The notes under the pieces were generated by a model. It searched no databases. It was not told where the DNA came from and saw only the letters and a list, made by a program, of their open reading frames with translations. Shown here in pieces: positions 56,223 through 59,965 of a stretch of 64,000 bases of DNA (position 1 is its first letter; every line of letters starts with the position of its first letter). This DNA comes from Methanocaldococcus sp. (GTDB lineage Archaea; AGJL01; Methanococci; Methanococcales; Methanocaldococcaceae): contig NZ_JACCLX010000026.1 in the NCBI RefSeq assembly GCF_024490875.1, positions 1-64,000 of the forward strand, given 5' to 3'. The translations under genes were made by a program, and so were the position numbers.

Positions 56223-56473
56223 ATTTTTATCCTCTTTGGGGCATGATTTTAAACGATTTTAAACTTGATTTGGCATCACCCTAATTTAGCAAAACCTACA
56301 ATTTCCATCCCCTTTGGGGCATGATTTTAAACTAACTATAATCTCTAAATAGAAATCGTATGAAAAAGAAGATTTCCATCCCCTTTGGGGCATGATTTTA
56401 AACCATATTACCCCCCAATCAATTTTAAAAACTCAATCAGTATTTCCATCCCCTTTGGGGCATGATTTTAAAC
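56223..56473 (-). CRISPR. Short CRISPR array: four repeats, three spacers
   Basis: Four 32-base repeats lie at 56223-56254, 56301-56332, 56372-56403 and 56442-56473. On the plus strand they read ATTTCCATCCCC, TTTGGGGCATGATTT, TAAAC. The last three are identical; the first has three changes in its first twelve bases. Spacers are 46, 39 and 38 bases; the first holds a 10-base tandem copy of GATTTTAAAC next to repeat 1. A degenerate repeat normally marks the leader-distal end, so transcription should run on the minus strand, where repeats end in GATGGAAAT like other Methanocaldococcus arrays. No cas genes are in the window. Confidence 0.92.
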
Positions 56474-56539
56474 AGGGCACGATTTGAAGAGATAATTTTC
56501 TAAAATTACCTTATAATTCTCCTATAATAGGGGGTTATA

Positions 56540-56946: not shown

Positions 56947-57069
56947 TGTATCTACCCTTGGAAAACCGTGGCCTTCATCGAAGCCGTTGTGGCTACTCGG
57001 CACGGCCGCCTTGTGGGTAGATTGCCGAGGTGGTTTCATCCCCTGCGGAAGGTCGCCACCCGGGACATC
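56947..57069 (-). ncRNA. GC-rich structured RNA with H/ACA guide RNA architecture
   Basis: A ~120-base GC-rich island stands out in AT-rich DNA. On the minus strand ATCTACCC (57022-57015) pairs with GGGTAGAT (56957-56950), which is followed directly by ACA (56949-56947), as in archaeal H/ACA RNAs. Inside, unpaired ACAAGGCGG and TTTTCCAA would form the guide pocket, an upper stem CCGTG/CACGG follows, and CGATGAA fits a kink-turn. A second hairpin upstream (GGTGG/CCACC with CGA and GATGAAA) also looks like a kink-turn. A TATA box precedes it and a TTTTTT follows the ACA. High-GC RNAs (Hgc) are known in M. jannaschii; whether this is one of them is not tested. Confidence 0.75.
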
Positions 57070-58897: not shown

Positions 58898-58956
58898 TTA
58901 TTTTTCTTCTATATTTTCATTTTCATCTTCTATCTTTTTTGGTGGAACTCTTGCAA
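58898..58956 (-). pseudogene. Displaced former C-terminus of trmI
   Basis: On the minus strand this fragment reads ARVPPKKIEDENENIEEK and a stop. The present trmI ends ARVPPKPIDEE. The shared 16 bases (TTGCAAGAGTTCCACC) appear at both places, with the GC-rich hairpin element between. So an insertion with duplication at this site gave trmI a new end and left the old end downstream without a start. Confidence 0.7.
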
Positions 58957-59141
58957 TCCATAGGGCTCCGCCCTATTGGGATACCCGGGATGCATTGCTT
59001 CGCTAACGCTCAGCAATGCCTCTTAAATTAAAATAAAAAAGACAAAACTCCGGGGGTATACCAATAGGGAGTGGAACCCCCTATGGATGTATTACCTCGC
59101 TTACGCTCGGTAGTGCCTCTTATTCTTCATCAATTGGTTTA
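58957..59141 (-). mobile_element. GC-rich hairpin element inserted at the 3' end of trmI
   Basis: About 185 bases of unlike composition are bordered by direct repeats of 16 bases (58941-58956 and 59142-59157). The element starts TCCATAGGGCTCCGCCCTAT and carries near its other side CCCCCTATGGA and GGTATACCAATAGGG, so its ends are inverted repeats (TCCATAGGG...CCCTATTGG). It also has two direct copies of a ~36-base hairpin unit: GCATTGCTTCGC...GCAATGC at 58991-59018 and GTATTACCTCGC...GGTAGTGC at 59089-59116, each followed by CTCTTA; base changes in the stems compensate. It has no transposase, so it resembles a MITE or REP-like element. The last CTCTTA supplies the trmI stop. Confidence 0.65.
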
Positions 59142-59956
59142 GGTGGAACTCTTGCAACTGTTATATAGCCAGTATGACCTATCATCCTCGTTGAAGGTCT
59201 AACTCCTTTCTCAGAAACTTCAATCTCTCTTTCAATAAGTTCATAAGTATGTATATCCCAGAATCCTTCTTCTTTAAGTTTTTCAACTGTCTTTTTAACC
59301 TGCTCTATGTATGGAAGATATGTAACTATCCTCCCTCTTTTTTTATTCAATGCCTTTTTTGCATTCTCTACAACATTCCAAGGATCTGGCAAATCTAAAA
59401 CGATTACATCCACATCTTTTTCATCAATTTTTTCTCTAACATCACCAATTTTTTGAATTACATTAAATAAACCATCCTCTATTTCAATTTCATCCTCATC
59501 GTCAAAATCTTCATCCAATCCAATAATTTTTTGTCCTTTTCTTATAGCCCCAACTCTTAATAAATTTTTTCTTGCAACTTTGGCAAATTCTGGTCTAATA
59601 TCGTAAGTTATAACTTTTCCAGTTTTTCCAACGGCATTTGACAAATACATAGTTAATGCTCCTGATCCAGTTCCTGCTTCTACAACTGTTTCTCCTTCCC
59701 TAATTCCAGATATACTTATAATAAAGCCAATGTCTTTTGGAAGTAAGGTAGTTACAGTTCTTTTCATTCTTTTTAATATATCAAACATTGTGGGCTCTAC
59801 CAAATAAAATCTATATCCTTTATGAGATTTTAGTTCAAATCCTTCTTCAACATTCTCTAAATCTACTATTCCCAAATCTGTTCCAAATTTTTTAACATCC
59901 TTTTTTAATAAATATCTCTTCCCTCTCTCATCTACTAACAGTTTATAGGCAAACAT
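59120..59956 (-). CDS. trmI: tRNA (adenine-N1)-methyltransferase TrmI
   Basis: The ~278-residue protein methylates adenine N1 at positions 57/58 in archaeal tRNA, which helps tRNA stay stable at high temperature. TLLPKDIGFIISISGIREGETVVEAGTGSGALTMYLS near residues 70-105 holds the SAM site, with the aspartate of ITYDIRPEFAKVA near 118, DVIVLDLPDPWNVV near 190 and the C-terminal VRPSTRMIGHTGYITVARVPPK. The ATG at 59956 follows GAGTGATGTTT. The C-terminus has been replaced: the last few residues and the stop lie next to the GC-rich element. Just after rnhB. Confidence 0.93.
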   Translation of the reverse strand: MFAYKLLVDERGKRYLLKKDVKKFGTDLGIVDLENVEEGFELKSHKGYRFYLVEPTMFDILKRMKRTVTTLLPKDIGFIISISGIREGETVVEAGTGSGALTMYLSNAVGKTGKVITYDIRPEFAKVARKNLLRVGAIRKGQKIIGLDEDFDDEDEIEIEDGLFNVIQKIGDVREKIDEKDVDVIVLDLPDPWNVVENAKKALNKKRGRIVTYLPYIEQVKKTVEKLKEEGFWDIHTYELIEREIEVSEKGVRPSTRMIGHTGYITVARVPPKPIDEE

Positions 59957-59965
59957 AAACATCAC

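Follow-up and report, generated by a model that had tools for sequence, protein, structure and literature searches.

The locus and its insert

The window, that is the whole stretch of DNA analysed here, covers the first 64,000 nucleotides of contig NZ_JACCLX010000026.1 from Methanocaldococcus sp. (GCF_024490875.1; genome G000 in what follows). The gene under study is trmI, which is read from the minus strand and encodes a tRNA m1A58 methyltransferase of the GCD14 family. A hairpin-rich insert lies at its 3′ end, followed by a second copy of that gene end (Table 1). The product aligns to solved structures of TrmI and other SAM methyltransferases over query residues 9-272.

The earlier note had described 16-base direct repeats of the ARVPP codons of trmI. 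These repeats, GGTGGAACTCTTGCAA, are indeed exact, with 185 bases between the two copies. However, similarity around them reaches beyond the 16-mer, to 78% over 40 nt, and fades outward; the target duplication at trmI is longer than 16 bases, at about 40, and has partly decayed. As was also read from the letters, the ORF now terminates in VARVPPKPIDEE, and its stop codon TAA (59120-59122, minus strand) is supplied by the CTCTTA end of the second B1 hairpin unit of the insert. The downstream copy extends as far as the former stop codon, near 58898. It was taken for the old end of the gene, and it does retain ENIEEK, but equating it with the ancestral end would be too simple: in relative G006, which is empty, the gene ends ARVPPKPIDENIEEK, and KPIDE stands in the upstream copy. 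Likewise, the C-terminus of TrmI has truly been rewritten, but the change is small and concerns the last few residues. DENIEEK became DEE, a change of about 5 residues in a tail outside the part aligned to solved structures. About 5 residues of a disordered tail are all that TrmI has lost.

Table 1. Features of the trmI locus and of the comparison array in the window
Feature	Position	Strand	Basis or remark
CRISPR array of four repeats, no element; empty comparison site	56233-56477	plus	leader homologous to those of element-bearing arrays
Second copy of trmI 3′ end, adjoining A hairpin (one extra T between)	58917-58956 (exact 16-mer 58941-58956)	minus	direct repeat; single copy in G006
A hairpin, forward, CCATAGGGCTCCGCCCTATTGGGATACCC	58958-58986	plus	outer end CCATAGG, the target-touching end in the family
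B1 hairpin unit, GGATGCATTGCTTCGCTAACGCTCAGCAATGCCTCTTA	58988-59025	plus	repeat; pairing kept by compensatory changes in 28 A-B1 units
AT-rich stretch between the two units	59026-59052		internal part including it absent from G005 composite
Second A hairpin, reversed, GGGGTATACCAATAGGGAGTGGAACCCCCTATGGA	59053-59087	minus	opposite in orientation to the forward A hairpin
Second B1 unit, GGATGTATTACCTCGCTTACGCTCGGTAGTGCCTCTTA	59085-59122	plus	repeat; same junction in G005; source of new trmI stop
Target copy inside trmI	59118-59157 (exact 16-mer 59142-59157)	minus	direct repeat, alignment with 58917-58956
trmI (tRNA m1A58 methyltransferase, GCD14 family)	59120-59965	minus	ORF; Pfam GCD14 (E=1.5e-30); solved TrmI relatives

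The insert at 58957-59122 is a composite built from a family of elements in which a constant hairpin, called A here, is combined with a variable one, called B. It contains two A hairpins in opposite orientation and two B1 hairpins in the same orientation. The B1 units are the two diverged hairpin units with compensated stems that had been noticed before, and they are 82% alike. The inverted ends were also described correctly, since TCCATAGGG (58957-58965) and CCCTATGGA (59079-59087) are exact reverse complements. Folding of the insert region is far above that of shuffled sequences, with z of -5.3 as DNA and -5.5 as RNA.

Another GC-rich stretch in AT-rich surroundings lies in the window at 56947-57065 and is conserved in G010 (L109). 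It is a candidate non-coding RNA; Rfam gave no match at the gathering threshold and a weak H/ACA-like hit below it.

A family of joined hairpins in Methanocaldococcus

Throughout the family, hairpin A (CCATAGGGC..GCCCTATTGGTATACC) is the constant part, and the second hairpin joined to it, B, varies. Copies were found by searches, together with the stretches around the matches. A 15-mer of A with at most one mismatch has 1-39 copies in 12 of 14 Methanocaldococcus genomes, with zero matches for the reversed pattern as control, and a stricter A pattern has copies in 11 of the 14. G003 and G009 have no A copy and G012 has one; at least 20 A hairpins are found in G004. Among 84,980 species genomes, matches to the exact A pattern are confined to records of Methanocaldococcaceae, and searches of viral contigs, plasmids and phages gave no copy. 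The further copies predicted for this genome are also present, with about ten of the 67-base A-B1 part elsewhere at 79-90% identity. Thus, the view of an inserted, repeated palindromic element with many copies elsewhere, often at gene ends, is upheld.

A is nearly constant, whereas the second hairpin is of at least five kinds (GCATTGCC.., CGGGGCTTCAC.., ACACCTCC.., GTCCATTAAG.. and GAACCTTTT..). In the B helix of 28 A-B1 units, both sides have changed at 7 of 10 pairs and 96.4% of cells are paired, which none of 500 shuffles equalled. It is apparently the hairpin rather than its letters that is kept, by selection or by copying. Elements are usually about 60-135 bp long, and sometimes several are stacked to form a larger composite. 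In a single unit, A makes up one end and a hairpin of another kind the opposite end; A stands at both ends only in composites, so that terminal inverted repeats at both ends are not a feature of the single unit. An Rfam scan of the element gave no match up to E=1. The transposase with matching inverted ends that the earlier note expected to lie elsewhere was not found, and neither was an autonomous partner or carrier among the fetched loci, viral contigs, plasmids and phages.

Empty sites and the history of trmI as a target

At all four sites tested, the duplicated stretch is present as a single copy in relatives that lack the element, so the duplication arose together with the insertion. Three of these sites are filled in G004, namely L169 (empty in G011 and G007), L178 (empty in G007, G006, G012 and G003) and L057 (empty in G002, G006, G000 and G010), and the fourth, L112, is filled in G011 and empty in G001, G005, G006 and G000. 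As in a MITE, the elements are short, non-coding and multi-copy, inserted at some sites and missing from the orthologous ones.

A related trmI with one end and no element, as anticipated, is that of G006, whose TrmI is 99% identical. Over 700 bases upstream of the trmI tail region, G006 is 96.3% identical to G000 and is its closest relative there. G005 (94.4%), on the other hand, shares the composite with G000 at the same junction. With the closer genome empty and the more distant one filled, loss or conversion must also happen; loss may plausibly proceed by recombination between the long repeats. In G001, G002, G004 and G010, an A-B element stands right after trmI and is followed by a second copy of the gene end, which starts CTGG directly after CCCTATGG(A). 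The first copies of G001, G004 and G010 share GCGAGAGTT and their second copies GCAAGAGTC, a pattern that fits one old insertion. The second copy of G002 has GCAAGAGTT, and its B hairpin is different. Because the composite of G000 and G005 differs from the element of these four genomes and lies at a different junction, the end of trmI has been struck at least twice.

Long target duplications at the A end

Data from the whole collection showed frequent direct repeats around the elements. Among 101 non-CRISPR clusters, 41.6% had a flank-to-flank repeat score of at least 20, compared with 3.9% when flanks were swapped and 6.2% when the same test was applied at distant places of the same loci. A direct repeat touched the outer end of A in 34% of 122 A-ends and in 0.4% of controls. 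In the loci fetched after this A-contact rule was set, 10 of 14 clusters, a set that includes a few relatives of discovery sites, had an A-touching repeat, against 2.1%. In nearly all clear cases, one copy of the repeat stops at the outer end of A or no more than a few bases from it.

Duplication lengths in 44 cases ranged from 22 to 89 bases, with a median of 40 and the middle half at 34-51, which is unlike the short duplication of fixed length made by MITEs. Several duplications are exact (40/40 at L089, 35/35 at L178 and 34/34 at L057). The longest duplication, at L105 and L333 in G008, is 78-84 bases and exact over 78, and a further partial copy lies in between. About half of the copies have no recognisable duplication, and old age, nesting or another origin are the alternatives for these. 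The duplicated stretches contain no target-site consensus, with at most about 0.4 bits per position. No microhomology was found at the A junction: the next target base is C in 6 of 34 cases, and the next two are CC in none of 34.

The B side is different in that a short filler, mostly AT-rich, lies between hairpin and repeat. We considered whether this filler extends the duplicated stretch, and rejected this because it has no match to the upstream flank.

Mechanism of insertion

Three features are fixed by the data: one precise end, which is A, one ragged end, and a long target duplication of variable length. Our reading, to which we give a probability of about two in three, is that these are non-autonomous insertion elements whose machinery breaks two strands tens of bases apart. 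According to this model, a putative cellular or mobile enzyme that recognises A would make or use the paired breaks, which would then be followed by gap repair. The outer end of A (CCATAGG) would be joined precisely to one end of a target stretch of about 20-85 bp, a short AT-rich filler would link the B side to the opposite end, and gap filling would duplicate the target stretch. Two distant breaks with gap filling form the simplest explanation of both ends and the duplication, the one with the fewest assumptions. Against this reading, duplication lengths vary far more than those of any transposase with a fixed stagger; the copies with no recognisable duplication, the failure to find a partner and the empty G006 at trmI count against it as well. 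Only tentatively do we suggest that the double-hairpin elements represent a new insertion mechanism, possibly with a CRISPR integrase or an RNA/cDNA step, and that one insertion became fixed in a set of CRISPR leaders.

A serious rival is template switching during replication or break repair, in which a strand copies a remote hairpin, returns behind its starting point and copies 20-85 target bases again, so that no dedicated transposase would be required. Variable duplication length, the AT-rich filler on the B side and the modular mixing of B hairpins speak for such switching. It is weakened by the A end, which is precise in nearly all recognisable cases and has no microhomology, and we consider template switching unlikely.

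The element in CRISPR arrays

In 11 CRISPR arrays of this genome (L002-L008, L016, L018, L019 and L023), A-B1 occupies the first-spacer position, with a degenerate first repeat on one side and the following repeat on the other. Besides the empty array in the window (Table 1), further arrays also have homologous leaders without A-B1. The degenerate first repeat is common to the element-bearing arrays, which suggests that one insertion spread or was amplified with its leader. In the arrays, a run of T comes after the B1 hairpin, and this hairpin could serve as an array terminator or attenuator. At L133 in G005 (677-1068), a 182-base unit of CRISPR repeats and A-B1 is tandemly duplicated with near identity.

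An element flanked by repeat copies in first-spacer position brings to mind Cas1-Cas2, which would insert the hairpins as off-target spacers and thereby leave a repeat-sized duplication. Moreover, every high-copy genome has cas1, and the gene is missing from G009 (0 copies of the element) and G012 (1 copy). But G003 has two cas1 genes and zero elements, although the genomes with few copies are at the same time the most distantly related ones, so that relatedness is confounded with copy number. Duplications set by the repeat would be about 30 bases long, instead of spread broadly over 22-89 as observed; a length set by a ruler, as for CRISPR spacers or casposons, is not what the data show. In addition, the element is about twice the length of a spacer or more, and the shared first repeat points to one amplified insertion. 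Off-target spacer integration is thus improbable as the source of the family.

Marginally more improbable is RNA-mediated retroposition, in which a two-hairpin RNA with a fixed A end would be reverse transcribed into a target nick and leave the other end ragged. One precise end, one ragged end and a variable duplication are the usual sign of target-primed reverse transcription, and the hairpins covary. However, no reverse transcriptase (PF00078) was detected in any of the 14 genomes, in a search that detected its controls.

Mobilisation of a REP-like palindrome by a Y1 transposase of the IS200/IS605 or RAYT type is very improbable. The elements are indeed palindromes that are imperfect, contain a bulge and lie dispersed between genes, but PF01797 is absent from this genome and present in only 2 of the 14 congeners, and duplication of the target is not known for IS200/IS605 insertion. 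We therefore rejected Y1 transposase and reverse transcriptase as movers, on the absence of PF01797 from this genome and of PF00078 from all 14. Of the MITE/REP likeness first proposed, being inserted, repeated and empty in relatives holds; a link to REP/RAYT does not, with PF01797 absent, and neither does the ordinary MITE signature of long inverted ends with a short fixed duplication. A local rearrangement, in which the end of trmI was duplicated in tandem and gained hairpins by chance, is just as improbable. Several species do have a duplicated trmI end, but dozens of unrelated genes and tRNAs show this A-anchored geometry too, with single-copy empty sites.

Gene ends, tRNA targets and significance

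An ORF start or stop lies inside the duplicated stretch in 21 of 34 cases, compared with 16.6% of random pairs. A duplication of about 40 bases leaves one whole gene when the insertion falls near its end, so survivors would be expected there with no need for targeting. The duplicate would restore the broken gene end, and insertions near gene starts, stops and tRNA 3′ ends would survive. At trmI, insertion would have swapped about 5 tail residues, and a dead copy of the 3′ end would have stayed behind downstream of the gene.

Transfer RNAs may be an exception to this view. At genes for tRNA Gly, Ile, Leu and Arg (L021, L113, L289, L168, L182 and L172), all repeats start at the T-loop, GTTYGAATC, and at most of these sites the element ends at the T-loop with a hairpin such as GAACCTTTTACTAAAAGGTTC. 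The constant start suggests some target preference at tRNAs. At L177 (G004:C1:343828), an element with a duplication of about 65 bases lies at the end of a putative cas4, which was recognised by eye through its cysteine motif; cas1 is about 100 bases away.

Should our reading hold, what was known only as a family of old palindromic repeats would be an insertion element with no recognised enzyme, and its target duplication would be several times the usual length for elements of prokaryotes. This would explain how essential genes, such as those for tRNAs and TrmI, and gene starts can be struck without lethality, and would offer a route by which protein ends change. It would also draw attention to a hairpin element that fills the place of the first spacer in many CRISPR arrays. 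Moreover, the spread of REP-like palindromes without a matching transposase, a long-standing question, would become testable in tractable sister species with empty and filled sites.

Comparison with known systems

Palindromic elements of M. jannaschii, in groups MJRE1-3, were reportedly the subject of Suyama, Lathe and Bork 2005 (FEBS Lett 579:5281). Judged by their description in citing papers rather than by consensus, our family is almost certainly of the same kind: both belong to one genus and are multi-copy palindromic repeats mostly outside genes. As cited in PMC2229807 and PMC2996958, the repeats described in 2005 (PMID 16182294) are mostly intergenic, with some in coding sequence; the citing text mentions neither long duplications nor empty sites, a precise A end or a position in CRISPR leaders.

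The elements also resemble REP/RAYT and other IS200/IS605 derivatives in being imperfect palindromes between genes, and differ from them by the lack of a Y1 transposase in this genome and by the long target duplication. Compared by description, YPAL/RU-2 of Yersinia is similar in that it is not AT-rich, has internal inverted repeats and makes variable duplications; those are of 3-26 bp (PMC2229807), whereas ours reach about 85 bp, and the hosts are unrelated. Mitochondrial double-hairpin elements and GC clusters are like our elements in that they have GC-rich hairpins within a genome rich in AT, merge in modular fashion and have no known enzyme (PMC4478555, PMC2800124). However, GC clusters have flanking repeats of 2-3 bp (PMC4478555) and the Allomyces double-hairpin elements have none (PMC2800124), in contrast to the long repeats seen here. 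Insertion at tRNA ends or at CRISPR repeats produces a target duplication, as it does for casposons and in CRISPR spacer integration. Casposons encode Cas1 and make target duplications of 1-27 nt with a median of 15 (PMC4046053), whereas the Methanocaldococcus elements encode nothing and their duplications are longer. Thus, next to 3-26 bp for YPAL, 1-27 nt for casposons and 2-3 bp for GC clusters, the length of the duplication is unusual.
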